64,000 bases of DNA from the NCBI RefSeq assembly GCF_001570525.1, contig NZ_BBXC01000007.1:609364-673363 (forward strand), given 5' to 3'. A program made the position numbers and the translations under genes. Below the pieces are notes generated by a model, which ran no database searches, was not told the origin of the DNA, and saw nothing but the letters and a program-made list of their open reading frames with translations. Each line of letters starts with the position of its first letter. Positions within the stretch are counted from its first letter, which is position 1. Source of the DNA: Herbidospora sakaeratensis. Its GTDB lineage: Bacteria; Actinomycetota; Actinomycetes; Streptosporangiales; Streptosporangiaceae. Shown here piece after piece: positions 1 to 41,888 of the stretch.

Positions 1-2182
1 CGAGCGGCGCCCACAGGTTGGGCACGACCAGGTCGAAGGCGACCGACCCGAGCAGCGGCGCGCCGCCCTCGCCCCGGGAGGCGAGCTCCTCGACGGCCCA
101 CCACACGTGGTTGACCAGCCCCCGGTGGGTGACCTGGACGCCCTTCGGCTTCCCGGTCGAGCCCGAGGTGAAGATCAGGTAGGCCAGCCGGTCGAGGTCG
201 GGCTCGACGTCGACCGGCGTGGTGTCGCCGTCGATCGCGGCGACCTCGACGACCGTGGGGCCGTCGAACCGGGACAGGTACTTGCGCTCGGTCAGCACCA
301 GCGAGGTGGCCGCCGTCTCCAGCATGTCGGCGATGCGCTGCGGCGGGAACGCCGGGTCCATCGGCACGTACGCCGCCCCGGCCAGCCACACGCCCAGCAG
401 CGACGCGATCAGGTCGGGGGAGCGGTCGAGCAGCACCCCGACGGTGCTCTCGGGGGTGACCCCCTCGGCCAGCAGCCGCCGGGCGATCTGGTTGGCGCGG
501 GCGTGCAGGTCGGCGTGGGAGACGTCCCGGCCGGCGAACCGGACCGCGGTCGCGGTCGAGTTCCGGTGCTGCGCGAGCAACAAAGGGAGCGCTCTCTCTG
601 GGTACGGACGCCCTGAGTCGTTCCACGTCCCGAAGATCGTGTCCCGCTCCTCGGGCGTCACCAGGTCGAGCTCGGCCAGCGTGGCCGACGGGTTCGCCGC
701 GATCTGGGCGGCGAGGTGGTGGTAGTGGCCGACCATGCGGTCGACGACCTCGTCGTCGAGCAGGTCGCGCCGGTAGGTGAAGTCGAGCCCCGTGACGTCG
801 CCGTCGAGGTGGACGAGCAGCGACAACTCGTAGCCCTGGTGGTCGACCTCGTGGTCCCAGATCGAGGCGGTCAGGCCGGGCCAGTCGCCGCGCTGGTCGC
901 GGAAGCCGCGTAAGGAGAAGCTCACCGGCAGCGTCAGGCCGACCGCGTCGGCCAGCACCGACAGCGGCAGCTGGTTGCTCAGCGCGCCGCCGACGGCCGC
1001 CCGGATCCGCGCGGCGACCTCGGGGAACGCGGGGTCGCCCGACAGGTCGCCGTGGATCGGCACCGCGTTCACGAAGCACCCGACGACGCCTTCGAGCTCG
1101 CGCCGCCGGCGCCCGCCGTTGGTGGTCGCCAGGGTGACCCCCTCGGCGCCGGTGTAGCGGGCCAGCAACATCGAGAACACCGCCAGCAGGGCGGTGAACG
1201 GCGTGGTGCCCGGCCCGCCGGCGGCCTGCAGCGCGGCGAGGGTGCCCGGGGCGAGCAGGCTCCAGTTCGTGCTGGTACGCCGCCCGTCGGCGACCGGCCG
1301 TTCCCGCCGCACCGGCAGCTCGACCGCCGGGGCGCCGTCGAGGGCCGTCCGCCAGTAGGCGGTGCGCCGGGCGACCGCCTCGGGGGTCAGCTCGGCCCGC
1401 GACCAGGCGGCGTAGTCGGCGTACTGGACCGGCAGCGGAGGCAGCGCGGACAGGGCGGCGGAGGCGCTCCCGGCCGCCTCCCCGGCGAGCGTCTCCGTGC
1501 CGAGCGTCTCCGTGCCGAGCGTCCGCGCGCCGAGGAACTCGCCGTAGAGCGTCGCCAGTTCGTCGGCGAGCAGGCCCATCGACCAGCCGTCGGCGGCGAT
1601 GTGGTGGCACACGACCAGCAGGGCGTGCGACTGCTCGGCCAGCCGGATGAGGGTGGCCGCGACGACCGGCCCGTTCCGCAGGTCGAACCGCCGGGTCACC
1701 GCTTCCGCGGTGATCTCCTGGGCGAGGTCGGGGGCGCCGTGGAACTCCAGCGGCATGGGGAACGGGTCGAGCACCGTCTGGAGCGGCTCGTCGCCGCCCG
1801 GGGCCGGGACGTTCGCGGTCGAGGAGCCCGCCGTCTGGGCGGCCTGCTCGCCGGGAGTCGCGTAAACGGTACGCAGGCTCTCGTGTCGGGCGATCAGGGC
1901 GTCGAGGGCGGCGGTCAGCGCCGGGACGTCGAGCGGGCCGTCGAGCCGCAGCCCCAGAGTGGCGTTGGGGGCCGGGGCCACGCCGTCGAGTTGGGCGCCG
2001 AGCCACATCTGGCGCTGCTCGAAGGAGCAGGCGAGGGGGCCCTGGTCGCGCGGGACGACGGGGATGGGGGATTTCGGACGCGCGGTGAGCAGGCGGGCGA
2101 GGGCCGCCTGGCGCGCGGGGGAGAGCCCGCCGAGGGAGCTACGGGGCGCGGACTCGGGTGTGGATGTGGACGTCACTGCCAC
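1..2182 (-). CDS. Nonribosomal peptide synthetase, N-terminal part (C-A...), runs off the window
   Basis: Only the first ~727 residues are inside the window; the gene continues past base 1. Residues ~25-470 form a condensation domain with an intact active-site motif HHIAADGWS, expected to make a peptide bond between carrier-bound aminoacyl groups. An adenylation domain follows from ~500, with the phosphate-binding core motif (FTSGSTGKPKG) near residue 670; the sequence ends at GSVAFDLVVPNLWAPL, before the specificity residues, so the substrate cannot be read. The start is the GTG at 2182, preceded by GAAAGG 7-8 bases upstream; a second in-frame GTG lies 6 bases further in. Starting with a C domain, it is not a plain loading module: either it follows another synthetase or the C domain takes an acyl starter. 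The promoter region carries a CebR operator and three phased direct repeats. Confidence 0.93.
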   Translation of the reverse strand, partial: MAVTSTSTPESAPRSSLGGLSPARQAALARLLTARPKSPIPVVPRDQGPLACSFEQRQMWLGAQLDGVAPAPNATLGLRLDGPLDVPALTAALDALIARHESLRTVYATPGEQAAQTAGSSTANVPAPGGDEPLQTVLDPFPMPLEFHGAPDLAQEITAEAVTRRFDLRNGPVVAATLIRLAEQSHALLVVCHHIAADGWSMGLLADELATLYGEFLGARTLGTETLGTETLAGEAAGSASAALSALPPLPVQYADYAAWSRAELTPEAVARRTAYWRTALDGAPAVELPVRRERPVADGRRTSTNWSLLAPGTLAALQAAGGPGTTPFTALLAVFSMLLARYTGAEGVTLATTNGGRRRRELEGVVGCFVNAVPIHGDLSGDPAFPEVAARIRAAVGGALSNQLPLSVLADAVGLTLPVSFSLRGFRDQRGDWPGLTASIWDHEVDHQGYELSLLVHLDGDVTGLDFTYRRDLLDDEVVDRMVGHYHHLAAQIAANPSATLAELDLVTPEERDTIFGTWNDSGRPYPERALPLLLAQHRNSTATAVRFAGRDVSHADLHARANQIARRLLAEGVTPESTVGVLLDRSPDLIASLLGVWLAGAAYVPMDPAFPPQRIADMLETAATSLVLTERKYLSRFDGPTVVEVAAIDGDTTPVDVEPDLDRLAYLIFTSGSTGKPKGVQVTHRGLVNHVWWAVEELASRGEGGAPLLGSVAFDLVVPNLWAPL

Positions 2183-2242
2183 GGAGTGGCCTTTCTTTGA
2201 ACGGTCCAAGGCAACCCGAAAAAGGCCGGCGCGATAAGCGCC

Positions 2243-2275
2243 ATCCTAATGTTGCGCTGAGTTGCAGAAAGTTGC
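2243..2275 (-). promoter_or_regulatory. Candidate NRPS promoter with three helically phased direct repeats
   Basis: On the + strand GTTGC occurs at 2251, 2261 and 2271, exactly 10 bases apart. Read toward the NRPS gene, these are GCAAC repeats directly upstream of TAGGAT (2248-2243), a fair -10 element. Direct repeats in register with the helix next to a -10 box are typical of SARP/OmpR-type activators. No activator gene for it is identified in the window. The assignment is inference from spacing. Confidence 0.4.
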
Positions 2276-2294: not shown

Positions 2295-2308
2295 TGGGAG
2301 CGCTCCCA
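2295..2308. promoter_or_regulatory. CebR operator between the NRPS and glycosyltransferase genes
   Basis: The sequence TGGGAGCGCTCCCA is a perfect 14-bp palindrome, identical to the known CebR-box consensus of Streptomyces and to both boxes upstream of cebE in this window. It lies 113 bases upstream of the NRPS start and ~420 bases upstream of the glycosyltransferase start. CebR repressors release such sites when cellobiose or cellotriose binds. Confidence 0.85.
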
Positions 2309-2615
2309 CTGCACCCCCACAAGAGATTAATGGAACCTATTCGCAACGCGCAAGTGCGCGCCGCGCGCCGTCGGGGAATGTCGGCTTACCCGCGAATTAC
2401 CGATGAGTAAGCGAACGACCCTCCTTCGCTCTGCTGTTGTGCAGGTCAGGCATCCGGGAGCAGGATAGTATAGAACTTAAAAAAAGTCACGACCATGAGT
2501 CTGCCCCACATTCCCGGAGTACTGGAAGCGGTCGTTCCATTATGCGGGATCACCGTTGACAGGAACATGTCGCTGCTGCTTCTTTGGTTGCATTCAGGGC
2601 GGGCATCCGGGAACA

Positions 2616-2629
2616 AGAGAGCGCTTTCT
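2616..2629. promoter_or_regulatory. Weak LacI-type operator-like palindrome
   Basis: AGAGAGCGCTTTCT matches 9 of 14 positions of the CebR box and keeps the AGCGCT core. It lies ~100 bases before the glycosyltransferase start. The rest of the 2183-2728 interval is relatively AT-rich and shows no convincing gene. Confidence 0.25.
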
Positions 2630-2728: not shown

Positions 2729-3949
2729 GTGCCGAGGATAATCGCCGTCACCCATGGCACCGACGGTGACGTGATGCCCTTCGTCCGGCTCGGTGCGGAA
2801 CTGCGCCGCCAGGGCCATGAAGTGACCCTGATCACCCACGCGCCCTACCGGGCCGCGGCGGGCGGCCTCGACTTCGCCGCGATCGACACCGCCGAGCAGT
2901 TCGCCCGCCACCAGGCCGACACCGCCCAGCTCATGGACACCCGCAGCGGCCTCGGCTGGCTCGCCTTCTACGAGCGCAACGGCCTGTTCGAGCAGCTCGC
3001 CTTCGAGGTCAAGGCCATCGCCGAACGCCACGAGCCGGGCCGCACCGTGCTGGTCGGCCGGCACACCTCCGCCTTGTCGGTCCGGTTCGCCGCCGAACTC
3101 CTCGGCTGCCCGGTCGCCTGGGTCGCGGTCTCCCCGATCCAGGTCATGGGCGCCCGCCTGGCGGCCCACATGTACGCGACCGAACTCGCCGGCGGCTTCC
3201 AGGCCGTCCGCGACGACCTCGGCCTGCCGCCGATATCCGATTGGCATGGCTGGTTCGCCGGCGCCACGATGGACGTCGGATTGTGGCCCCGCTGGTTCGA
3301 CCAGGCCGGCGCGAAATCCCCGGCGCGATTCGAACTCGCCGGATTCGCCGTGCCCGACGCCGCCTCCCGGGAAACGTTCTCTCCGGACGTCGTCGCCGAC
3401 CGTCCCGTCCTGGTCTCGGGCGGCACCGGGCGCATGCTGAACGCCGACTTCTACCCTTCCGCGCTGAAAGCGGTCGAGGGATTTCCGGCCGTGGTCGTCA
3501 CGCCCTATCCCGAATTGTTGCCCGCGCCGCTGCCCGACGGGGTGCGCTGGTTCGAACGGTTGCCGTTCGACCAGGTCGTACCGGAAGTCAGAGCGGTGGT
3601 GCACCACGGCGGCATCGGCACACTGACGCGCGCGCTGATGGCCGGCACCCCGCAATTGGTGCTCGCCGACGGCGCCGACCGTCCCGACAACGCCGCCCGG
3701 CTCGCCAAACTCGGGCTGGCACGATGGCTTCCGCCCGGGAAATGGCCCGAGGCGGGGGAACAGCTGCGCGACCTGCTCGCATCGGGGGAGCGGCCGGCAG
3801 CACCCGAGGACCTCGACCCGTCGTCGGGCATCACGAGAGCGGCGGCCCTCATTGCCTCGCTCCTCGGCCCGCCGCGCCCGGTTCGTCCCGTCCTCACGGA
3901 ATCCCAGCGCGAAGCGCTCCGACGCCACCTCCGAAAAGGATCCCGATGA
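2729..3949 (+). CDS. GT1-family glycosyltransferase (UDP-glucosyltransferase-like, MGT/sterol glucosyltransferase type)
   Basis: A 406-residue protein expected to move a sugar from a nucleotide donor to a small acceptor in the cytoplasm. The N terminus (VPRIIAVTHGTDGDVMPF) is the family's first beta strand and glycine-rich loop. The C-terminal half has the donor-binding signature HHGGIGTLTRALMAGTPQLV, ending in a DRPDNA segment. The frame is open back to 2495, but GTG at 2729 fits the family's usual N terminus; ATG at 2660 is the alternative and has no clear ribosome site. It overlaps the hydroxylase gene by ATGA and is divergent from the NRPS, so it is a candidate tailoring enzyme of the peptide, like glycopeptide Gtf enzymes. 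The acceptor is unknown; macrolide-type detoxification is another possibility. Confidence 0.85.
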   Translation: MPRIIAVTHGTDGDVMPFVRLGAELRRQGHEVTLITHAPYRAAAGGLDFAAIDTAEQFARHQADTAQLMDTRSGLGWLAFYERNGLFEQLAFEVKAIAERHEPGRTVLVGRHTSALSVRFAAELLGCPVAWVAVSPIQVMGARLAAHMYATELAGGFQAVRDDLGLPPISDWHGWFAGATMDVGLWPRWFDQAGAKSPARFELAGFAVPDAASRETFSPDVVADRPVLVSGGTGRMLNADFYPSALKAVEGFPAVVVTPYPELLPAPLPDGVRWFERLPFDQVVPEVRAVVHHGGIGTLTRALMAGTPQLVLADGADRPDNAARLAKLGLARWLPPGKWPEAGEQLRDLLASGERPAAPEDLDPSSGITRAAALIASLLGPPRPVRPVLTESQREALRRHLRKGSR

Positions 3950-4848
3950 GCTGGCAACCCCATGAGTTACACAGCGACGGCAGGCCGCTGGCCGACTTCC
4001 TGCGCGACACCCCCGTCGACGACCTCCTGGTCGAGAAGAAGGCCCTGGTCTTCCGCGGCTTCGGCGTGACCGAGGCGACGCTCGACCCGCCGATGGACGT
4101 GCTGCTGCCCGACCGGCTGGCCTACGTCCACGGCAACTCCCCCCGCACCAAGGTCGGCCAGAACGTGTACACCTCGACGGAGTACCCGGCCGAGTACACG
4201 ATCTCCATGCACAACGAGTTGTCCTACGCGGCGTCCTGGCCGTCGCGCCTGATGTTCTTCTGCGCCAAGGCCGCCGAGTCGGGCGGCGCGACCCCCGTGG
4301 TCGACGGCGTGACGTGGCTGGAGTCGCTCGACCCGGCGGTGCGGGAGGCATTCGCCAAGGGCGTGCGCTACACCCAGAACCTGCACGGCGGCATGGGGCT
4401 CGGCAAGAGCTGGCAGGAGACCTTCGAGACCTCCGACCAGAAGGCGGTCGAGGAGTTCCTCGACGCCTCCGCCGCCGAATGGACGTGGCGCCCCGACGGC
4501 GGCCTGCGGGTGACCCAGATCCGCCCGGCGACCACGCGTCACCCGGTGACGGGCGTCGAGGTCTGGTTCAACCAGAGCGACCAGTGGCACCCGGCGTCAC
4601 TGGGCGACGAGACGGCGATGATGCTCGCCGAGATCATGCCGCCGGAGGACCTCCCGCAGTCGGTCCAGTACGCCGACGGCACGCCCATCCCGGCCGAGCA
4701 CGTGATCCAGGTGCGCGACCGGGGCCTGGAGCACGCCGTGAACGTCGACTGGCGGACCGGCGACGTGCTGCTGATCGACAACGTCCTGGTCGGCCACGGC
4801 CGCCGGCCCTTCACCGGCTCCCGCCGGGTCCTGGTCGCGATGAGCTGA
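3946..4848 (+). CDS. TauD/TfdA-family Fe(II)/2-oxoglutarate dioxygenase, SyrP/AsnO-like amino acid beta-hydroxylase
   Basis: A 300-residue non-heme iron oxygenase. The iron ligands are visible: an HxE pair (H89-N90-E91 in MHNELSYAASWPSRL) and a distal His near 284 (LVGHGRRPFTGSRR) followed by the 2-oxoglutarate-binding Arg. The HxE form, rather than HxD, is typical of clavaminate synthase, AsnO and SyrP relatives, which hydroxylate the beta carbon of Asn, Asp or Arg, free or carrier-bound, for NRPS products. The start ATG at 3946 follows AAAGGATCCC and overlaps the glycosyltransferase stop (ATGA), so the two are translationally coupled. Its place beside an NRPS supports precursor or tailoring hydroxylation. 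The substrate is not shown by the sequence; the Asp-like A domain at 43.3-44.6 kb is one candidate partner. Confidence 0.85.
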   Translation: MSWQPHELHSDGRPLADFLRDTPVDDLLVEKKALVFRGFGVTEATLDPPMDVLLPDRLAYVHGNSPRTKVGQNVYTSTEYPAEYTISMHNELSYAASWPSRLMFFCAKAAESGGATPVVDGVTWLESLDPAVREAFAKGVRYTQNLHGGMGLGKSWQETFETSDQKAVEEFLDASAAEWTWRPDGGLRVTQIRPATTRHPVTGVEVWFNQSDQWHPASLGDETAMMLAEIMPPEDLPQSVQYADGTPIPAEHVIQVRDRGLEHAVNVDWRTGDVLLIDNVLVGHGRRPFTGSRRVLVAMS

Positions 4849-6508: not shown

Positions 6509-6528
6509 TCAGGTCGACGCCCTGATCA
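6506..6528. terminator. Hairpin spanning the convergent stops
   Basis: TGATCAGG (6506-6513) pairs with CCTGATCA (6521-6528) around a 7-base loop. It covers the end of the I36 gene and the end of cebR. No T-run is evident, so activity is uncertain. Confidence 0.35.
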
Positions 6529-7528
6529 CCAGGTGGGTGTCGAGGATGACGACCGGCTGCTCCAGCGGCTCGCCGTTGATGCGGGCCACCAGCAGCTGCA
6601 CCATCTGCCGGCCCATCGCCTCGGTCGGCTGGTGGACGCTGGTCAGCGGCGGCTCGGTGTGCAGGGCCACCTTCGAGTCTTCGAAGCCGATCAGCGCGAT
6701 GTCCTGGGGCACCGCGCAGCCCCGTTCGCGCAGCACCCGCAGCGCGCCGACCGCCATCGGGTCGGAGGCCGCGAAGACGGCGTCGAGGTCGGGGTGGCGG
6801 TCGAGCAGTTCGCGCATCGCCGTCGAGCCGCTCTCCTCGGAGAAGTCTCCGTAGGCGACGCGTTCGGTCAGGCCGGTCGCGAGCAGGGCGTCGCGGTAGC
6901 CGGCCAGTCGGTCGACGCCCACGCCCATGTCCTGGGGACCGGCGATGGTGGCGATGCGGGTGCGGCCCTTGCCGAGCAGGTACTTGACCGCCTGCCGGGC
7001 CCCCGCCCGGTTGTCCATGTCGACGTAGCTGTAGGGGTTGAGCCCCACGGGGCGGCCACCGAGGACGGTGGGCACGCCGAGCTCCTCGAGACGTCCCGGC
7101 AGGGGGTCGGCGCCGTGGACCGAGGTCAGCAGGACGCCGTCGACGTGCTGCCCGGTCAGGTAGTGCTCCAGGCGGTCGTGTTCGTTGCGGTTCTGGGCCA
7201 TGCTCAGGATGAGCTGCAGGCCCGTCTCGGCCAGCGCCGACCCGATTCCCCTGATCAGGCCGGCGAAGTAGGGCTCGTCGAACACGCGCTGCTCGGATTC
7301 CGACACCACCAGGGCGATGGTGTCGGTCCGGTTGGTGACGAGGGTGCGGGCCGCCCGGTTGGGGACGTAGCCGAGCTCGTCGATCGCGAGCAGGACGGCG
7401 TCGCGGGCCTTCTCGCTCACCTTCGGCGAGCCGTTGATGACCCGTGAAACCGTTCCTCGCCCGACTCCGGCCCGTGCGGCGACGGCTTCGAGCGTCGGCC
7501 TCGCGACCGAGCGGCGGTCCCCGTTCAT
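6509..7528 (-). CDS. cebR: LacI-family repressor, CebR-like cello-oligosaccharide sensor
   Basis: A 339-residue repressor. Helix-turn-helix residues ~10-60 read TLEAVAARAGVGRGTVSRV and INGSPKVSEKAR, very close to known CebR proteins, followed by a periplasmic-binding-protein-like effector domain ending in PLTSVHQPTEAMGRQMVQLL. CebR represses cellulose-use genes by binding TGGGAGCGCTCCCA and leaves DNA when cellobiose or cellotriose binds. Three perfect copies of that palindrome are in this window: two upstream of cebE and one before the NRPS at base 2182. The gene is last in the cebEFG-bglC-cebR run, 27 bases after bglC, so it would be autoregulated with the operon. Confidence 0.88.
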   Translation of the reverse strand: MNGDRRSVARPTLEAVAARAGVGRGTVSRVINGSPKVSEKARDAVLLAIDELGYVPNRAARTLVTNRTDTIALVVSESEQRVFDEPYFAGLIRGIGSALAETGLQLILSMAQNRNEHDRLEHYLTGQHVDGVLLTSVHGADPLPGRLEELGVPTVLGGRPVGLNPYSYVDMDNRAGARQAVKYLLGKGRTRIATIAGPQDMGVGVDRLAGYRDALLATGLTERVAYGDFSEESGSTAMRELLDRHPDLDAVFAASDPMAVGALRVLRERGCAVPQDIALIGFEDSKVALHTEPPLTSVHQPTEAMGRQMVQLLVARINGEPLEQPVVILDTHLVIRAST

Positions 7529-7555: not shown

Positions 7556-8992
7556 CTATTGTGCCGGACCCCGGAGGCCCCCGTGCCGGATGGTCTCGGC
7601 GTACCAGAGAGCGCTATCTTTCAGGATGCGCGTCTGGGTTGGGTAGTCCACGTAGACTAGGCCGAATCTCTTGCCATAACCCCACGCCCACTCGAAATTG
7701 TCCATGAGCGACCAGGCGAAGTAGCCCTCCAGCGGCACGCCCGCCTCGATGGCCTGGTGGCAGACCCTCAGGTGGGTGTCGATGTAGGCCTGGCGTTCGA
7801 CGTCGTGGATCGCGCCGTCGTCGGTGACCACGTCGTCGTAGGCGGCGCCGTTCTCTGAAATGTACAGAGGGACGGCGGGGTACTCGTCGCGCAGCCGGGT
7901 GAGCACTTCGAGCAGGCCGTTGCCGTCGACCTCCCAGCCCATGCCGGTGACCGGGCGCCCGCCGTTGACGAAGCCGACGTGCTCGTTGCCGGGCCACGCC
8001 GAGCCGGTGTCGGTGGGGGCCGCCGACGCGGACTTGGGGCCGCCCTCGGCGCCGGTGACGGTGAAGCGGCTGTAGTAGTTGATCAGCAGCATGTCGAGCG
8101 GGGCCGCGATCAGCTCCAGGTCGCCGTCCTTGATGTACTCCTCGGGCGCGATCAGCGGCGTCAGGTCGTCGAGGACGTCCTGGGGGTAGCTGCCGCGCAT
8201 GAGGGCGTCCAGGAAGAAGCGGTTCTGCATGCCGTCGATGCGGCGGGCCGCGTCGAGGTCGGCCTCGGTGTCGCTCTGGGGGCTGATCGCGTAGAGGTTG
8301 ACGCAGCCGCCGATCCGCGTGTCGGTGCGCTGGGCCCGCATCGCCTGGACGGCCAGGCCGTGGGCCAGGTTCAGGTGGTGGGCCGCCTTGATCGACTCCG
8401 CCGGGTTCCGGCGGCCGGGGGCGTGCTCGCCCGAGGAGTAGCCGAGGAACGCCGCGCACCACGGCTCGTTGACCGTGGCCCAGTTGGCGACCCGGTCGCC
8501 GAGGGCGCCGTGCACGACGGCCGCGAAGTCCGCGAAGCGCTTCGACAGGTCGCGCGACGGCCACCCGCCCTCGTCTTCGAGGGCCTGCGGCAGGTCCCAG
8601 TGGTAGAGCGTCACCCAGGGCGAGATGCCGTAGGAGAGCAGCTCGTCGACCAGGCGCTTGTAGAAGTCGAGGCCCTTGGCGTTGACCTCGCCCTTGCCGT
8701 CGGGCTGGATCCGCGTCCAGGAGACCGAGAACCGGTAGGCGCTCAGCCCCAGGTCGGCCATCAGCCGGACGTCGTCGCGGTAGCGGTTGTAGTGGTCGAT
8801 CGCCACCGAGGCGTCGTCGCCCTCGACGACCCGCCCGGGTTGCGCGACGAAGGTGTCCCAGATGGAACGGCCGCGGCCGTCGGCCGTGAGGGCGCCTTCG
8901 ATCTGGTAGGCCGACGTCGCGCTGCCCCAGACGAAGCCGGTGGGGAAGACCAGACCAGGGGTGTCGATCTGGGTCTCTGTGTTCTGGGTCAC
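7556..8992 (-). CDS. bglC: GH1 beta-glucosidase, cytoplasmic, cello-oligosaccharide hydrolysing
   Basis: A 478-residue family 1 glycoside hydrolase that retains anomeric configuration and would split imported cellobiose or longer oligosaccharides to glucose. The acid/base motif TVNEPW and the nucleophile motif ISENGAAYDD are both present, as is the N-terminal FVWGSATSAYQIEGA segment. There is no signal peptide, consistent with intracellular action after ABC import. The start GTG at 8992 overlaps the cebG stop (GTGA), which is better than longer readings of the frame. In Streptomyces, BglC also removes the CebR inducer, so it both feeds metabolism and resets the switch. Confidence 0.93.
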   Translation of the reverse strand: MTQNTETQIDTPGLVFPTGFVWGSATSAYQIEGALTADGRGRSIWDTFVAQPGRVVEGDDASVAIDHYNRYRDDVRLMADLGLSAYRFSVSWTRIQPDGKGEVNAKGLDFYKRLVDELLSYGISPWVTLYHWDLPQALEDEGGWPSRDLSKRFADFAAVVHGALGDRVANWATVNEPWCAAFLGYSSGEHAPGRRNPAESIKAAHHLNLAHGLAVQAMRAQRTDTRIGGCVNLYAISPQSDTEADLDAARRIDGMQNRFFLDALMRGSYPQDVLDDLTPLIAPEEYIKDGDLELIAAPLDMLLINYYSRFTVTGAEGGPKSASAAPTDTGSAWPGNEHVGFVNGGRPVTGMGWEVDGNGLLEVLTRLRDEYPAVPLYISENGAAYDDVVTDDGAIHDVERQAYIDTHLRVCHQAIEAGVPLEGYFAWSLMDNFEWAWGYGKRFGLVYVDYPTQTRILKDSALWYAETIRHGGLRGPAQ

Positions 8993-9873
8993 TCCTTGAC
9001 CGCACCTTCCATGAGTCCGCCGATGATCTGGCGGCCGAAAAAGACGAATACCAGCAGAAGCGGAATGATCGACACCGTCGTGCCCGCGAAGATGAGCACG
9101 TAGTTGGTCGAGTAACGGTCGTTCAGGGCCCTCAGCGCGACTTGCACAGTCGGATTGTCCGGCGTGAGCACGATGAGAGGCCAGAGGAACTCGTTCCAGA
9201 TCAGCATGAACGTCTGGATCGCCAGCACGGCCATGCCGGGCCGGACCGCCGGCACCGCGACGTTCCACCAGATGCGCAGGGTGCTCGCGCCGTCGACCCG
9301 CGCGGCCTCCACCAGTTCCCTCGGTACGGCCTGGCGCGTGTACTGCGTCATGAGGAACACCCCGAAACCGTTCACCAGGAACGGCAGGATGACCGCCTTG
9401 AGGGTGTTCGTCCAGCCCAGCGTCACCATCATCTGGTAGAGCGGGACGATGCCCATCTGCTGCAGCGGCACCATCATGGTCAGCACGACCGACAGCAGCA
9501 GCAGGTTGCGGCCTCTGAAGGTGAGCGAGGCGAACGCGAACCCGGCCAGCGTCGAGATGATCACGATGCCGATCGTCACCGTGCAGGCGATGATGATCGA
9601 GTTGACGATGCCCGTCATGAAGTGGGCGTTCTCGGCCTCGAAGACGGCCCTGATGTTCTCGCCCAGGTTGCCGGCCGGGAGCAGCGGCGGCGGCATGCTG
9701 TGCGCGTCCTCGTTGGTGCGGGTCGCGATGACGATCATCCAGTAGATCGGGAAGATCGACAGGAAGATGGCCAGGCCCAGGCTCGCCTTGGTGAGCGTGG
9801 TGGCGCGGAACGGGTCGAGCCGGGAGGTGCCCGCCTTGGCAGCGCGGGGCGCCCGATGTGTGATCGTCGTCAT
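8989..9873 (-). CDS. cebG: ABC sugar transporter permease, CebG-like
   Basis: A 294-residue inner-membrane permease (MalG/UgpE class) with about six membrane helices, the first at residues ~30-50 (LGLAIFLSIFPIYWMIVIA). The coupling loop that contacts the ATPase is visible as EAARVDGASTLRIWWNVAVP (EAA motif). It is translationally coupled to cebF upstream (ATGA) and to bglC downstream (GTGA). With CebE and CebF it would import cellobiose and cellotriose. No ATPase is encoded in the operon, as expected for systems served by a shared MsiK. Confidence 0.9.
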   Translation of the reverse strand: MTTITHRAPRAAKAGTSRLDPFRATTLTKASLGLAIFLSIFPIYWMIVIATRTNEDAHSMPPPLLPAGNLGENIRAVFEAENAHFMTGIVNSIIIACTVTIGIVIISTLAGFAFASLTFRGRNLLLLSVVLTMMVPLQQMGIVPLYQMMVTLGWTNTLKAVILPFLVNGFGVFLMTQYTRQAVPRELVEAARVDGASTLRIWWNVAVPAVRPGMAVLAIQTFMLIWNEFLWPLIVLTPDNPTVQVALRALNDRYSTNYVLIFAGTTVSIIPLLLVFVFFGRQIIGGLMEGAVKE

Positions 9874-10844
9874 CGTGATCTCCCGATGCCGCGGACGATG
9901 GCGAAGTTGATCAGCGCGGTGATCATGATGAGCAGGAACAGGATCCAGGCCGCGGCCGCGGCGTAGCCGTACTGGAAGTCCCGGAAGCCCTCCTTGACGA
10001 TGAACATGGCCACCGTCTGGAACTGGCCCGTCGTGCCGCCGGTCATCAGGCCGGCGCCGAACATCACCGGCTCGGCGAACAGGGTGAAACCGCCGATCGT
10101 CGAGACGATGACGGTGAAGATGATCGTGGGCTTGAGCAGCGGGACCGTGATGCCCCAGAACTGGCGGCGCGGGGAGGCGCCGTCGATCGCGGCGGCCTCG
10201 TAGAGGTCCTTGGGGATCGTCTGCATCGCGGCCAGGTAGATGATCGCGTTGTAGCCGGTCCAGCGCCAGTCGATCATCGTGGCGATGGCGATCCACGACG
10301 ACCACTTCTCGTTCTGCCAGTGGATCGGGTCGACGCCGAACGCGCCCAGCACCCAGTTGACCAGGCCGTAGTCACGGCCGTACAGCTGGGTGAAGACGAC
10401 CGCGACGGCGACCACCGAGGTGATGAGCGGCGCGAGCACGCTCAGCCGCAGCACCAGCCGGCCGCGCAGCTTCTTGTTCAGTGCGTTGGCCAGCAGCAGC
10501 GCGAGCAGCAGCTGCGGCACCGTCGCGATCACGAAGATGCCGACGGTGTTGAGCACCGAGTTCCAGAACTTGTCGTCCGCCAGCAGCTCGGTGTAGTTCT
10601 CCATGCCGATGAACGTCTTGTCGCCGGCGAGCTGCCAGTCGTGCAGCGACACCCAGGCGGTGAAGATCAGCGGGAAGACGCCGAAGATCGCGAACAGGAT
10701 GAAGTAGGGCGAGACGAACAAATAGGGAGTGGCCCGCAGGTCCAGCCAGGACCAGAATCTCCGGCCGCCCGGCGGCCGCGCGTGCCGCCGGGGCCCGGGT
10801 GGCACCGTGCGGGTCCGGGAGCCCGCGTCGACGCTGAGGCTCAT
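9870..10844 (-). CDS. cebF: ABC sugar transporter permease, CebF-like
   Basis: A 324-residue permease of the MalF/UgpA class. A cytoplasmic basic N terminus (~35 residues) precedes the first helix (YLFVSPYFILFAIFGVFPLI), and the EAA coupling loop reads YEAAAIDGASPRRQFWGIT. The start ATG at 10844 follows GAAAGG. It partners with CebG as the heterodimeric membrane channel for cello-oligosaccharides. The gene lies 97 bases after cebE, and that gap carries two strong hairpins that may set a lower permease-to-binding-protein ratio. Confidence 0.9.
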   Translation of the reverse strand: MSLSVDAGSRTRTVPPGPRRHARPPGGRRFWSWLDLRATPYLFVSPYFILFAIFGVFPLIFTAWVSLHDWQLAGDKTFIGMENYTELLADDKFWNSVLNTVGIFVIATVPQLLLALLLANALNKKLRGRLVLRLSVLAPLITSVVAVAVVFTQLYGRDYGLVNWVLGAFGVDPIHWQNEKWSSWIAIATMIDWRWTGYNAIIYLAAMQTIPKDLYEAAAIDGASPRRQFWGITVPLLKPTIIFTVIVSTIGGFTLFAEPVMFGAGLMTGGTTGQFQTVAMFIVKEGFRDFQYGYAAAAAWILFLLIMITALINFAIVRGIGRSR

Positions 10845-10863
10845 CGTCAACCTTTCGTGGAAG

Positions 10864-10925
10864 GAGCGGCCGGGGGGATCCGGCCGCTCAAGTGAGTGAC
10901 CGGCCCCTCGGTGCAGGGGCCGGTC
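10864..10925 (-). terminator. Two hairpins between cebE and cebF
   Basis: Arms GAGCGGCCGG (10864-10873) and CCGGCCGCTC (10880-10889) form a perfect 10-bp stem. Arms GACCGGCCCCT (10898-10908) and AGGGGCCGGTC (10915-10925) form a perfect 11-bp stem. Placed just after the binding-protein gene, they resemble partial terminators or RNA stabilisers common in ABC operons. Confidence 0.6.
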
Positions 10926-10941
10926 GGGCACGGCCGGGGGG

Positions 10942-12282
10942 TCAGCCCGCGGCCTTCACGCCCTCCTCCACGAATCGGGTCCAGGCCTCGTCCCACTTGA
11001 CCGAGCCCTGGTCGGCGCCCACGAGGACCTCCTCGACGGCGGCCTTCACCTGGGCGTGCTTCTCACCGAAGAACACCGGCGCGAGCTTCGCGACCGAGGC
11101 GGCGAAGATCGGGCCGCTCGGGGCGTCGTTGAAGTAGGCGTTCTTCGCGTCGGCGACGGTCGGGTCCTGCTGCGCCGGGATGGCGCTCGGGAAGTTGCCG
11201 CCCTCCTTGAACGCCGCGACCTGGCCGTCCTTCCCGGTCAGGAAGTTGAGGACGTCGGCGGCCTCCTTCGGGTGCTTGCTCTGCGACGGGACCATCAGCC
11301 AGGAGCCGCCCCAGTTGCCGGAGCCGCCGGGCACCGCCGCGACGTCCCACTTCTTGGCGTTGGAGTCGCCGGAGGTGCCGGAGATCACGCCGAGCATCCA
11401 CGAGGGGCAGCCCATGGTGGCGAAGCCACCCTTCTGCATCGCGGTGTTCCACTCCTCGCTCCAGGAGCGGAGCTTGGCGGTCAGACCGGCGCTGCTGAGG
11501 GACTGCACGTAGTCGAACGCGGCCTTGACGCCCGGGTTCTTGTCGACCACGAGGGCCTGCGACTTGTCGAAGTAGTAGAGGCCGCCGTTCTTGCCGGCCT
11601 CCTGGGCGAGCACCGAGTTGTACACGGTGTTGGCGCCGTCGACGAAGCCCGCGTCCGGCACCTTCGCCTTGAACTTCTTGCCGACCTCGAGGTAGTCGTT
11701 CCACGTCGGCCAGAGCTTGGAGACCTCGTCGCGGTTGGTCGGCAGGCCGGCCTTCTCGAACAGGTCGGTGCGGTAGCACATGGCCATGCCGCCGATGTCG
11801 GTGCCGAGGGCGAACAGCTTGCCCTCGGTGTTGAGGCCCACGTCGTACTTGAACGCGGGGTAGTCCGCCTTACGGCTGTCGAGGCCGTACTGACCGAGGT
11901 CGGCGAAGTACTGCGGACGGGCGGCCATGAGGCCCATCGCGCCCTCGTCCATGGCGATGATGTCGCCGGCGCCGCTGCCGGCCTCCAGCCACTGGAGGAC
12001 CTGCGGCAGGTAGGTGTCCTCGAACCGGTCGGTCAGGTTGACGTACTTGACCTGGACGTTCGGGTTCGCGGCGTTCCACTGGGCCACCGCGTCGTCGTAG
12101 GCGAAGTTCTCGCCGCCGCCGAAGGTGTTCAGCGTGATCTCGATCTTCTCGGCAGGGGCCGCGGAGCCGCCCGCGCTAGGTGCCGCTGCGGGTGCCTCGT
12201 CGCCGCCGCAGGCAGCGGCCGTGATGGCCAGCGTCCCTGCGGCCACGGCCGCGAGCACACCGCGGCGCGTGTTGTTCATCAT
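10942..12282 (-). CDS. cebE: Cello-oligosaccharide-binding lipoprotein, CebE-like ABC solute-binding protein
   Basis: A 446-residue extracellular solute-binding protein. The N terminus is a lipoprotein signal with lipobox AAAC near residue 25, so it would be anchored outside the membrane; an Ala/Gly-rich linker follows (GGDEAPAAAPSAGGSAAP). The body shows family 1 sugar-binding features (DAVAQWNAANPNVQVKYV; the segment around WPTWNDYLEVGKKFK). It is the first gene of the ceb operon and delivers substrate to CebF/CebG. The start ATG at 12282 has GAGAGGGG upstream; ATG at 12279 is equally possible. Two perfect CebR operators lie 78 and 208 bases upstream. Confidence 0.92.
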   Translation of the reverse strand: MMNNTRRGVLAAVAAGTLAITAAACGGDEAPAAAPSAGGSAAPAEKIEITLNTFGGGENFAYDDAVAQWNAANPNVQVKYVNLTDRFEDTYLPQVLQWLEAGSGAGDIIAMDEGAMGLMAARPQYFADLGQYGLDSRKADYPAFKYDVGLNTEGKLFALGTDIGGMAMCYRTDLFEKAGLPTNRDEVSKLWPTWNDYLEVGKKFKAKVPDAGFVDGANTVYNSVLAQEAGKNGGLYYFDKSQALVVDKNPGVKAAFDYVQSLSSAGLTAKLRSWSEEWNTAMQKGGFATMGCPSWMLGVISGTSGDSNAKKWDVAAVPGGSGNWGGSWLMVPSQSKHPKEAADVLNFLTGKDGQVAAFKEGGNFPSAIPAQQDPTVADAKNAYFNDAPSGPIFAASVAKLAPVFFGEKHAQVKAAVEEVLVGADQGSVKWDEAWTRFVEEGVKAAG

Positions 12283-12359: not shown

Positions 12360-12373
12360 TGGGAGCGCTCCCA
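12360..12373. promoter_or_regulatory. CebR operator, proximal, upstream of cebE
   Basis: Perfect palindrome TGGGAGCGCTCCCA, 78 bases before the cebE start. It is identical to the distal copy and to the copy before the NRPS. Confidence 0.9.
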
Positions 12374-12489: not shown

Positions 12490-12503
12490 TGGGAGCGCTC
12501 CCA
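12490..12503. promoter_or_regulatory. CebR operator, distal, upstream of cebE
   Basis: Second perfect TGGGAGCGCTCCCA, 130 bases centre to centre from the proximal box. Two spaced sites could allow looping by a LacI-type tetramer or simply strengthen repression. Confidence 0.88.
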
Positions 12504-34412: not shown

Positions 34413-35885
34413 TCAGCGCCCCGGTCCTTCGCCTCCCGCCAGGACGTAATGGCGGGGGGTGATCGCCGCCATTCGGCCGGGGAGGAGGCTGAGGCATTTC
34501 GTGTGCAATTCCGCCGGGGTCATGGTCGTCGGCGCGTGGCAGGCGAGGGCGGAATCCACCGACGCGGGAATGCCGCAGGCGTCCGTCACGAGTTTCGTCA
34601 CTTCCGGCAGTGAGACCCATTGGCCATCGCTGAACACCCAGGAATCGTCTCGCTCAATCGGGACGATCCCTGAAATTTCGGGAATAGTCACGGCATTTCC
34701 GTCCCCGGCCGCGATCAATACTTTCGCGATTCCCTCGCCGAGCCTCAGCGCGTCCTCCCTGGGCAGCACGCGCGGGTCGGCCCACAGGGTCAGGTCGAGT
34801 TCGCCGTGCAGGCGGTGCACCCACAACGCCGTCCGGCACGGCAGGGTCGACTCCGGCAGCCACACCGCGCGCACCTCGTCGCCCGTCGTCGCCGGACGCC
34901 CGGTGCGGCCGGTGCCGCTCATGTCGTTGAAGACCAGGTCGCGGGCGAAGAACACGCCGCGGTCGCGTTGCACCCGCTCCATGATGGCGATCAGCGCGTC
35001 CGCGTCGAAGCGGCTGTTCTGGTACGCCCCCAGCGCCGCCCCCCGCACCCCCGCGAGCACCTCCTCGAAGGAGGCCGAGACCGGCACCGGGACCAGGGCG
35101 TCCTGCGCCAGCGGGCCGACGTAGGAGCGCAGGTCGGGGCGGAACCGGTTGGCCGAGATCGACAACACCGGCGTCAGCGGCAGGCCGCCCCGCAGCCCGG
35201 CCAGCGCCGCGTAGGCGGCCAGGACGGCGGCCGAGCCGCTGACGCCCGTCCGGGCCGAGATGCGGGCCAGCGCGCGGGCCGCCCCGGCCGAGCGCACCCG
35301 AAGGCGCGGCAGCCGCCACTCGTGGCCGGTGTCGTCGACCGACACGGTCAGCGTCGAGCGTGGCACCCGCGACAACGCGCCGTCCCAGTAGCGCAGCGCC
35401 GCCTCGGCCCGCTTGCGCCCCGCCGGGGAGGTCTCGGCGAGCGCGACGTCCACGGGCTGGGGCGCGGTGACGGGGTCGAGCGGCTTGCCGACGACGATGT
35501 CGTCCCAGTCGGCCAGCAGCACGGCGAGCCCGGCCGCGTCGGCGGCGCTGTGGGTGGTCACCAGCGTCACCTGGTCGCCGGACACCCCCACCCGCAGCGG
35601 CAGTTCGTGCTCCAGGTCGAACCGGACCGTGTGGTCGGCCTCGGGGCCGAGGGCGATCTCCCCGGAGCCGTGCACCCGCTGCACGTCGCCGTGGAAGGTG
35701 GTCCGGAGCGACTCGTGCCGGCCGACCAGGCGGCGCACCGCGTCCTCCACCGGGATTCCGGCCGGGAGGCCGCGGACAACCCGGTAGTTCATGTGCTCCG
35801 GCGGGTCGGTGCGCACGCAGCGCACCATGTTGGCCTGGCCCATCGTGAGCGGGCCCTCGCGGGCGGGCAGCCCGGAGAAGATCAC
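34413..35885 (-). CDS. Stand-alone condensation-domain-like protein with degenerate active site
   Basis: A 490-residue NRPS condensation-fold protein without A or T domains. The opening LPAREGPLTMGQANMVRCV, the latch-type VFFARDLVFNDMSGTGRTGR and AYQNSRFDADALIAIMERV are C-domain landmarks. The catalytic motif, normally HHxxxDG, reads THSAADAAG: the first His and the Gly are lost, while the His and Asp in HxxxD spacing remain. The last ~100 residues (FSDGQWVSLPEVTKLVTDACG onward) are not assigned. GTG 35885 overlaps the NRPS stop (GTGA), so it is co-translated with the C-A-T-C-A-T enzyme. It may be an inactive scaffold, an esterifying or releasing C domain, or an interface partner. Confidence 0.75.
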   Translation of the reverse strand: MIFSGLPAREGPLTMGQANMVRCVRTDPPEHMNYRVVRGLPAGIPVEDAVRRLVGRHESLRTTFHGDVQRVHGSGEIALGPEADHTVRFDLEHELPLRVGVSGDQVTLVTTHSAADAAGLAVLLADWDDIVVGKPLDPVTAPQPVDVALAETSPAGRKRAEAALRYWDGALSRVPRSTLTVSVDDTGHEWRLPRLRVRSAGAARALARISARTGVSGSAAVLAAYAALAGLRGGLPLTPVLSISANRFRPDLRSYVGPLAQDALVPVPVSASFEEVLAGVRGAALGAYQNSRFDADALIAIMERVQRDRGVFFARDLVFNDMSGTGRTGRPATTGDEVRAVWLPESTLPCRTALWVHRLHGELDLTLWADPRVLPREDALRLGEGIAKVLIAAGDGNAVTIPEISGIVPIERDDSWVFSDGQWVSLPEVTKLVTDACGIPASVDSALACHAPTTMTPAELHTKCLSLLPGRMAAITPRHYVLAGGEGPGR

Positions 35886-38800
35886 TGGGGCCTCCCGTGG
35901 ACGAGCGCGGCGGCCTCCTCGTCGGAGAGCTCGTCGAGCTCGGCGACGATCATCTCCTCCAGCACGGCGGCCAGCTTCTCCACGGTGGGGGAGTCGAAGA
36001 TGACCCTGATCGGCACCTCGATCCCGGTGATGGCCTTGATCCGGGCCAGCGCGCGGGCCGCCAGCAGCGAGTGGCCGCCGATGGCGAAGAAGTCGTCCAG
36101 CGCGCCGACCCCGGTGAGGCCGAGGACCGAGTCGTACACCTCGGCGACCAGGGCCTCGGCGTCGCCGCGCGGTTCGACGTGCCCGAGCGAGGCGCCCGCG
36201 TCGGGCGCGGGCAGCGCCCGTTTGTCGACCTTCCCGTGGGGGGTCAGCGGCAGCGCGTCCAGCCACATCCAGACCGAGGGGATCATGTACGCCGGCAGCG
36301 CGTCGCCCGCCCATTCGGCCAGGTCGGTCCGGGTTCCGGTGACGTAGGCGACCAGCCGGTCGGCGTCGGCCACCACCACGGCCCCGGTGACCGCCGGATG
36401 CGCGGTCAGCCGCAGTTCGACCTCGGCCGGTTCGATCCGGTGGCCGCGCACCTTCACCTGGTCGTCGGCCCGCCCGAGGAACTCCAGCCGCCCGTCGGGC
36501 CGGAAGCGGGCCCGGTCGCCGGTCAGGTAGAGCCGTCCCTCCGGAGTGGGCCGGAAGCGTTCGGCGGTCAGCGCGGGCCGGTTGAGGTAGCCGTCGGCCA
36601 GACCGGAGCCGCCCAGGCAGAGCTCGCCCGGCATGCCCGGCGGCACGGGATGCCCGTGGGCGTCCAGCACCAGCGCCACCACGCCCCCGACGGGCCGCCC
36701 GATCGACGGGCGCTCCTCGTCGGTCACGTCACCGGCCGTCGCGATGATGGTGCCCTCGGTCGGTCCGTAGGTGTTCACCAGGCGGACCGAATCGCCGAAC
36801 CGCGCCCGCCACCGGGCCACGGCCGCGCCGCTCAGCTCCTCGCCGCCGAGGACGACCAGCCGCAGCCCCGGGGGCATCTCGACGTCGAGGGTGACCAGTT
36901 CGTGGAAGTAGGCCGTCGGCAGGTCGAGCACGGTCACGTCGCGCCCGCGCGGCGAGGCCAGGAGGGCCGGCAGCGTGAGCGGCCCGCCGGGCAGCAGTTC
37001 GAGGGTGGCCCCGGCCGCCAGCGCCGGATAGATCTCCTCGGCGTGGGTGTCGAACGAGTAGGCCGCGAACTGCACCACGTGGTCGCCGGGCGTCAGCCCG
37101 TACGCCTCCCGCATCCACGCCACCCGCGTGGCCAGCGCCCGGTGCCCGACCACGACGCCCTTGGGCGTCCCGGTGGAGCCCGAGGTGAACAACACGTAGG
37201 CGGCGTCCTCGTGGCTTCCCCCGGCGGCCTCCGAGCGCAGGAACGCCTTGCGCGCCTCGGGCAGCGCCGGGTCGACCGGCAGGTACGCCGCCCCGGAGGC
37301 CCAGGCCCCCAGAAGCGCCCCGATCCCTTCGGGGGTGCGGTCGAGCCCGACCTCCCGGATCGTGCGCCCGTTCTCGTGGACGGCGATCGGCAGCTCCCCG
37401 TAGGTCACGGTGCGCCCGTCGGTCCGGATGGCCACCGCGCCGGGCCGTTCGGCGATCTGCCGGGCGATCATCGCGGGCACCCGTTCGGGCTCGGGCAGCG
37501 CAGGGCCGTGCCCGGCCTCCTCCAGGAAGGCCCGGTCGGCGTCGGTCAGCAGCGGCAGCTCCGACAGCCGCCGCGCGGGGTCGGCCACCACGCCGAGCAG
37601 CAGCGTCTTCAGCCGGGCGGCCAGGCCCTCGGCCGTGGCGGCGTCGTAGAGCAGGGTGTCGTACTCCAGCTGGACGTGCAGGCCCTCGGCGTCCTGCCAC
37701 GCCTCCAGCAGCAGGTCGAACTTGGCCTGGGCGTGCCCGCTCGGCAGGTCGGTGACGGTCAGCCCGGCGAACGGGCGCGGCACCCGGCCGGTCTCGTGGG
37801 TGTGCAGGATCGCCATCGTCTGGAAGACCGGCGTCCGGGTCAGGTCGCGTTCCAGCCGCAACTCGGTGACCAGTTTCTCGAACGGCACGCCGCGGTGCTG
37901 GAAGGCGTCCAGGACGGTGGTCCGGGTCGCCCGCAGCAGGTCGGTGAACAGCGGGTCGCCCGACAGGTCGCCGCGCAGCACCAGGATGTCGGTCAGGTAG
38001 CCGATCACCGATTCGAGCGCGACGGTGTCGCGCCCGGCGTTGGAGGTGCCGACGAGCACGTCGGTGCGCCCGGTGTGCCGCGCCAGCGTGGTCTGGTAGG
38101 CGGCCAGCAGCGTCATGAACAGCGTCACCCGGTTGTCGCGGGCCAGCGCGACCAGCCGCTCGGTCTCGGGGAGCCCGACGCGGAAGGAGACCGTCGCGCC
38201 CGGCCCGGCGTTGCCGGTGCGGGGCCGGTCGGGGTGCAGGTCGAGCGGGGTCGGCGCGGCCAGCTGCCGCCGCCAGTAGTCGACAGCCGCGCCGGCGTCG
38301 CGGGCCCGCTGCCAGACCGCGACGTCGCCGAACTGCAGCGGCACCGGCGGCAGCTCGACGCCGGAGTAGGCGTCGGCGAGCTCGTCGAGCAGGATGTTCA
38401 GCGACACCCCGTCGCCGGTGATGTGGTGGGCCACCACGCAGAGCACGTGCGCGCCGGGCGTCTCGACCACGGTGACCCGGAGCGCCGGTCCGGCGGTGAG
38501 GTCGAACGGGGTGTTGACCCGGTCGGCGACCGGCCGGGCGGCGTCGTCGGCGGTGATCCACTCGATGACCGGGGTGGTGTCGAGGATCGCGACGACGGGC
38601 TCGCCGTCGACCGCCGGGAAGCTCGTGCGCAGGATCTCGTGCCGCCGCGCGACCGTGGTCAGGGCGTCCTGCAGCCGGGCCCGGTCGAGGTCGCCGGCCA
38701 GGCGGCGGACCAGCCACATGTTGAACCCGGCGTCGGTGTCGGGGTGGAGCCGGTTGAGGAACCAGAGGCGCTCCTGGCCCGCCGACAGCGGCGGCGTGGT

Positions 38801-41785: not shown

Positions 41786-41829
41786 TGTCCGCACGTGGGG
41801 GGCCGTGCGAAACTGACGATCTCCGCTTA

Positions 41830-41850
41830 ACTGTAAAGACTATTTACAGT
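41830..41850. promoter_or_regulatory. Inverted repeat in the divergent NRPS promoter
   Basis: ACTGTAAA (41830-41837) and TTTACAGT (41843-41850) are perfect 8-bp arms around GACTA. A similar half, TTACAGTTAG, lies at 41716-41725 within the other gene's 5' end. The palindrome is 38 bases before the + strand NRPS start and 44 bases before the - strand start, well placed to control both. The cognate regulator is not identified. Confidence 0.55.
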
Positions 41851-41888
41851 AAGGGAAATTGACAAACCGTCGTCGGAAGAGACGTTCC

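Follow-up and report, generated by a model that had tools for sequence, protein, structure and literature searches.

The 14-bp palindrome at 2295-2308, which lies between a non-ribosomal peptide synthetase (NRPS) gene and a divergent glycosyltransferase gene of Herbidospora sakaeratensis, is very likely a direct operator of the CebR/CelR-type repressor. As predicted from sequence, the repressor would keep the NRPS operon silent until cello-oligosaccharides relieve it, and the natural product is probably made while cellulose is eaten. The initial annotation had proposed this gating of the NRPS through CebR, and as a prediction it finds support in the regulator and the operator, in the cellulase regulon, and in conservation across genera. 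Sites, conservation, regulon content and the DNA-binding helix were computed here; binding, inducer, repression and product we infer.

The features concerned are the following. All lie in the window, by which we mean the whole stretch of 64,000 nucleotides that was analysed (C7:609364-673363 of the host genome, G000).

1..2182, minus strand: NRPS gene, 5' part (C-A-T-TE-MFS, 1812 aa; the gene runs ~3.3 kb past the window edge)
584..597, unstranded: AGGGAGCGCTCTCT within the coding sequence of the NRPS; differs from the operator at 3 positions and from the second type of palindrome at 1; kept in the 6 other Herbidospora loci
2295..2308, unstranded: operator, exact 14-bp CebR/CelR-type box TGGGAGCGCTCCCA; the predicted NRPS start is 112 bp downstream of its end
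2616..2629, unstranded: second palindrome AGAGAGCGCTTTCT, 99 bp before the predicted GT1 start
2729..3949, plus strand: glycosyltransferase, GT1-type, EryCIII-like; predicted start 2729
3946..4848, plus strand: TauD-family dioxygenase (hydroxylase), by profile match
6509..7528, minus strand: CebR/CelR-type LacI-family repressor (Pfam LacI, 57.6 bits; recognition helix AGVGRGTVSRVING as in 5ysz)
7556..9268, minus strand: GH1 family gene in the bglC position, by profile match
7606..7619, unstranded: AGAGAGCGCTATCT, palindrome of the second type with 1 mismatch, 77 bp before the cebR start
8989..9867, minus strand: cebG, ABC permease, by profile match
9870..10931, minus strand: cebF, ABC permease, by profile match
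10942..12282, minus strand: cebE, extracellular solute-binding protein, by profile match
12360..12373, unstranded: operator copy 1 on the cebE side, exact TGGGAGCGCTCCCA
12490..12503, unstranded: operator copy 2 on the cebE side, exact TGGGAGCGCTCCCA

Operator copies and the genes beside them

An exact search of the 64 kb located TGGGAGCGCTCCCA at 2295-2308, 12360-12373 and 12490-12503 alone, which confirms that the palindrome is intact at three places, two before cebE and one before the NRPS, as had been claimed. Base composition (71.8% G+C) predicts 0.0009 exact copies per 64 kb and 0.12 per 8.6 Mb. The whole genome contains 16, and a control of the same composition, the palindrome reversed without complementing, occurs 0 times. 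In 21 related genomes, 308 exact sites compare with 1 for the reversed control. Matches with up to 3 mismatches were discarded as evidence, as their number in the window (8) is no greater than in shuffles (mean 7.4). The informative weight therefore rests on the exact copies.

The genes beside the 16 sites are a cellulose regulon in outline. Six of the sites belong to cellulase genes, namely a GH48-CBM2 gene (1), GH9 (2) and GH6 (3, on contigs C21 and C22). Others are found at cebE (two), the NRPS of the window, a mutarotase gene after the NRPS operon, a CBM2 protein and a second NRPS at C8:564597. Further neighbours are a LacI gene with a divergent gene for a family-5 solute-binding protein, another LacI gene that adjoins a DUF305 gene, an MscL-type gene, and either a HATPase-domain gene or the gene beside it, whose 542-aa product has no Pfam match. 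Since two other LacI genes thus adjoin exact sites (C9:318933 and C19:165706), cross-binding is possible. At several sites the operator-to-gene distance is uncertain, because the site falls inside a mechanically predicted ORF start. At the NRPS, an exact box lies close upstream of the first gene, in a genome with a CebR/CelR orthologue accompanied by cebEFG and GH1 and with sites at cellulase genes, and the box is conserved across species; these are the marks of a regulon member.

The mutarotase site (C7:600179) is the fourth exact copy of the NRPS locus. It sits 9.2 kb before the first base of the window, between the GH1 gene that closes the NRPS operon and the mutarotase gene. The two cebE operators are spaced 130 bp apart, a distance that recurs at five other Herbidospora loci and at two loci of a second genus (g28), one of which has 1 mismatch in the second cebE site. 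This spacing may reflect repressor looping. A 2-mismatch operator was also seen at 41228, inside the first of two long divergent ORFs (1970 and 1721 aa) that span 35882-47054 of the window.

On the GT1 side, the control region carries the palindrome at 2616. Its g28 counterparts read AGAGAGCGCTCTCT or AGAGAGCGCTCTCC, and its core AGAGAGCGCT is invariant in 12 of 12 aligned sequences. Within 1 mismatch of AGAGAGCGCTCTCT the genome holds 14 sites (control 0), three of them in the NRPS locus and four beside a GH1/sugar ABC-transporter/LacI set at C9:222000-236000. These sister sites depart from the CebR box at symmetrical positions and form a related but different type. A similar palindrome stands before further sugar transporters of S. 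roseum and T. bispora in the available portion of a 2012 CelR survey (PMC3377646). Because the GT1 side has its own, different palindrome, each direction may obey a LacI regulator of its own, in the case of GT1 the sister regulator. The earlier view that a glycosyltransferase-hydroxylase pair shares the NRPS control region is thus borne out in part. Both genes are real, but the GT1 side has the palindrome at 2616 and TauD is not a constant partner, being present in 7/7 Herbidospora loci but found in just 2/5 of those of g28 (L031 and L081). The set at C9:222000-236000 (L117) has the look of a sister regulon, with GH1, a sugar ABC transporter, two LacI regulators, a ROK regulator and a CBM6 protein.

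The NRPS operon and its relatives

According to Pfam, the NRPS comprises condensation, adenylation, carrier and thioesterase domains and a fused MFS exporter, with its predicted start at 2182. It is the first gene of an apparent minus-strand operon, NRPS-ACP-GT4-E1alpha-E1beta-E2-GH1, in which gene ends overlap or nearly do so. The carrier protein has 107 aa and the E2 is of the lipoyl type; GT1 and TauD are transcribed divergently from this operon. Read by eye, the A-domain signature is DLPKVAEVGK, with the same residues in four g28 genomes, and is close to what we take to be asparagine codes of adenylation domains. For 10 proteins, none of the listed NCBIfam models passed its cut-off except those for a generic adenylation domain (in the NRPS, for which the best 25 of 105 matches were seen) and for GH1 beta-glucosidase. 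A simple promoter scan recognised no sigma-70-like promoter in 2100-2800. The NRPS leader contains, between operator and start codon, a terminator-like stem followed by a T run (2227-2243, minus strand); the control region has 2 terminator-like sites against 0.8 in shuffles, which is not clearly above chance. Near the NRPS operon, outside the window, a 1390-aa protein with NACHT and further P-loop matches is encoded (L013 868-5040).

A search with GT1 retrieved six named species of Herbidospora, a genus of the Streptosporangiaceae, at 89-96% identity. The operator is exact in the NRPS/GT1 interval of 7/7 Herbidospora. As the whole control region is 96% identical, however, conservation of the operator within the genus is weak evidence. 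In g28, the operator is again exact between NRPS and GT1 in 5/5 cluster-bearing genomes, and here the flanks have diverged. Across 12 aligned intervals from the two genera, 227/546 positions are invariant, and so are 14/14 positions of the operator. Fully invariant 14-mers number 6/533, and the operator falls in the second longest invariant run. The longest is ACTTAAAAAAAGTCACG (window 2475-2491), which at 17 bases in the 12 sequences of both genera exceeds the operator run. In one g28 genome (G027), which has the operator, just 183 bp separate the NRPS start from the carrier-protein match; the NRPS there is therefore missing or misassembled, and the genome was kept in the count of five.

The ceb genes and cebR are found within the stretch examined in 4/5 g28 loci, and neither cebR nor ceb genes in the stretch examined of L080. 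In H. solisilvae the operator is intact and no ceb gene was found in the ~9 kb beyond TauD. Three of the five g28 loci carry a 1-mismatch operator within the cebR coding region (L031 4121, L032 5162 and L033 8858), for which autoregulation is a possible explanation.

Loci that combine a carrier-protein gene with GT1 were gathered by protein queries (GT4, and the GT1 of the C8 cluster), not by operator. GT4 relatives occur in 22/345 genomes of the order, and the DNA of all 22 was inspected; as a marker in a class sample, GT4 was found in 2/394 genomes, both Herbidospora, and so gave no sign of a spread outside the family. A multi-module type, with carrier, GT1, GT4, E1, E2 and multi-module NRPS genes, has the exact operator in 4/4 loci of genus g4 and 2/3 of g32, between the carrier gene and the NRPS side, and a best match with 3 mismatches in G108 (g32). 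The distance to the carrier-protein start is 37-39 bp in five of these g4/g32 loci and 114 bp in the sixth. All six have an extra 1-mismatch site, 217 bp off in the four g4 loci and 206 bp or 175 bp off in the other two. G338 has carrier and GT1 and no operator in the 562 bp upstream that were examined. In G051 and G232, the stretch examined yielded a GT4 relative and neither GT1 nor E1/E2 matches, and no site with ≤2 mismatches.

The second NRPS of the host genome (C8:564597) is a paralogue, 40% identical and with the same domains, and is followed by a carrier protein, GT1 (50%), another NRPS and GH3. The operator of this cluster is exact in 7/7 Herbidospora, 82-126 bp before the NRPS start, and has 1 mismatch in 2/2 g28 genomes with a cluster of this type. 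Relatives of the C8 GT1 occur in 19/345 genomes of the order. Six of these are g4 genomes with another kind of carrier-GT1 pair, in which an exact site follows GT1 (6/6) and precedes the carrier gene (5/6); in G228, the site after GT1 alone is exact, with 1 mismatch in the site ahead of the carrier gene. Three of these loci (G228, G100 and G205) were followed further, and all three have an adenylation protein beyond the pair. An FAD enzyme and an NRPS come next in G100 and G205, and the G100 NRPS ends in a reductase (Pfam) with an MFS exporter behind it. No NRPS match was found in G228 beyond the lone adenylation protein. One g4 GT1 match (G201) contains an in-frame TGA, and its locus was retained in the count.

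The resulting 35 carrier-plus-GT1 loci consist of 12 of the window kind, 7 multi-module loci, 9 like the C8 cluster, 6 with the g4 pair just described, and G338. Of these, 31/35 carry the exact operator (30 without G228), spread over four genera, and 33/35 have it with ≤1 mismatch. Each Herbidospora genome holds two such loci. Orthologues within a genus are not independent, so the independent contexts come down to four architectures in four genera. The single NRPS-linked site of the initial annotation is confirmed, and it has company: a further copy precedes the paralogous NRPS cluster, and two more locus types in other genera carry the operator too.

In the proposed model, CebR would, without cello-oligosaccharides, occupy the 2295 site as well as the cebE and cellulase operators, and the NRPS operon would be off. 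Cellobiose or cellotriose, imported by CebEFG, would release CebR, and the NRPS operon would then be expressed together with the cellulases. The predicted product is a small glycosylated peptide. Here, the TauD enzyme could hydroxylate an Asn-like residue chosen by the A domain, and the carrier protein could, with the pyruvate-dehydrogenase-like trio, supply a short acyl unit. Both clusters of the genome encode GT1 and a glycoside hydrolase, which suggests that the product may be glycosylated and later trimmed.

The repressor and rival readings of the site

The minus-strand order of solute-binding protein, two permeases, GH1 and the LacI gene is the ceb layout. Together with the Pfam match and the 5ysz helix, this agrees with the earlier assignment of 6509-7528 to a CebR-type repressor. 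The true start of GH1 probably lies further downstream than in the 7556..9268 call, because cebG ends at 8989. By sequence, the closest solved relative of CebR is the LacI-family regulator 5ysz (E 1.3e-124, 418.7 bits), presumably Thermobifida fusca CelR; in the alignment, the recognition helix AGVGRGTVSRVINGS is identical, and the stretch LGYVPNRAARTLVT is identical too. The LacI domain (PF00356) has 42 matches in the genome, 41 over cut-off, in a scoring that took in 150/179 first-look candidates. DNA-binding domains were read for the 41 above cut-off; the one match below it is partial. The 5ysz-type helix is absent from all 40 read besides CebR, and the nearest is that of L056, VSRGTVSRVLNG.

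This abundance of paralogues raises the question whether another LacI-family protein is the main occupant of the site, in which case the signal would be a different sugar. With 42 domain matches among the 150/179 candidates scored, two LacI genes beside exact sites, an L056 helix similar to that of CebR, and sister AGAGAGCGCTCTCT-type sites beside GH1, ABC-transporter and LacI genes, there are grounds for such an occupant. We nevertheless consider it unlikely, since CebR alone among the 41 domains has the 5ysz helix, 8/16 exact sites belong to cellulase genes or cebE, and at symmetrical positions the sister sites have other letters than the CebR box.

The site could also be bound but silent, a decoy or remnant without effect on the NRPS promoter, or could act on another transcript. 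Its distance to the predicted start codon is 112 bp; the region gave no promoter in the scan and contains other conserved blocks, such as ACTTAAAAAAAGTCACG. The recurrence of the operator in four locus architectures, mostly near the first gene (37-39 bp, or 82-126 bp for the second NRPS), makes this very improbable. A chance occurrence, with which the shuffle-like count at 3 mismatches would agree, is a negligible prospect given 16 exact copies against 0.12 expected and a control of 0, and recurrence at corresponding places in other genera. Direct repression by CebR is thus the reading we prefer.

Known systems and wider meaning

The domain set of the thaxtomin NRPS includes an N-methyltransferase domain. 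In the NRPS of the window, Pfam finds C, A, T, TE and MFS and no methyltransferase, and the host belongs to a family other than that of Streptomyces, in line with the earlier expectation of a different family and product. The precedent that had been cited is upheld as far as excerpts of the literature go: in Streptomyces scabies, a LacI-family cello-oligosaccharide repressor, CebR, acts directly on the thaxtomin (txt) NRPS cluster through a near-identical 14-bp box (PMC5332605, PMC9953190, PMC12527672). The 14-mer studied here is itself given as the CebR box in the accessible parts of two papers (PMC5332605, PMC4898821). The txt boxes described in one of them are imperfect (gGGGAGCGCTCCCA and cGGGAGCGCTCCCA), lie at +1507 in txtB and at -786/-899, and are argued to be bound more weakly (PMC5332605, in part). 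In Herbidospora, by contrast, the box is perfect, is located 112 bp upstream, and belongs to another cluster in a non-Streptomyces family, with several genera sharing it. With a perfect consensus in a promoter-proximal position, the response of the NRPS should match that of a cellulase gene and differ from that of the thaxtomin genes. For S. scabiei, the available text names thaxtomin as the sole cello-oligosaccharide-induced specialised metabolite under direct CebR control (PMC9953190, PMC8914351).

The CelR regulon of Thermobifida fusca and other actinobacteria is a second parallel, with the same kind of site before the ABC transporter-beta-glucosidase-regulator operon and cellulases, and with CelR-type sites also in Streptosporangium roseum (PMC3377646, in extract). 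The portion of that survey at hand reports no site at an NRPS promoter, and mentions as a possible case a CelR site within the coding region of a polyketide synthase of A. mirum (PMC3377646). Within the open-licence literature, we found no report of CebR control of NRPS clusters in Streptosporangiaceae. Thaxtomin makes a CebR-controlled NRPS cluster known; a perfect, promoter-proximal and cross-genus version in another family, as predicted here, would be new within that literature.

In naphthyridinomycin-type pathways, E1/E2 and a carrier protein supply a two-carbon unit, with a ketose-derived unit passing to the carrier protein. The operon resembles these in gene content, its NRPS being accompanied by E1alpha, E1beta, a lipoyl-E2 and a free carrier protein. 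It differs in that E1 and E2 are separate genes, and in its two glycosyltransferases and GH1 gene.

We tentatively extend the model, with some doubt, to a class of glycosylated non-ribosomal peptides that would belong to the cellulose-utilisation regulon of Streptosporangiaceae by ancestry. Its four carrier plus EryCIII-like architectures would be held by CebR/CelR and released by cello-oligosaccharides. GH1 or GH3, present in both clusters of the host genome, could unmask a glucosylated, self-protected peptide and so arm a weapon or public-goods guard during cellulose digestion. The loci suggest that the direct hold of the cellulose repressor on peptide synthesis is an old arrangement in this family of soil actinomycetes. 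They also point to cellobiose or cellotriose as a concrete elicitor of the uncharacterised clusters of four genera, and offer a natural comparison of perfect, conserved boxes with the imperfect boxes of a plant pathogen.

The consensus of CebR is printed differently, as TGGGACGCGTCCCA, in an excerpt that also gives TGGGAACGTTCCCA for a second regulator, CebR2 (PMC9953190). The 1-mismatch forms TGGGAACGCTCCCA resemble this CebR2 sequence on one side.
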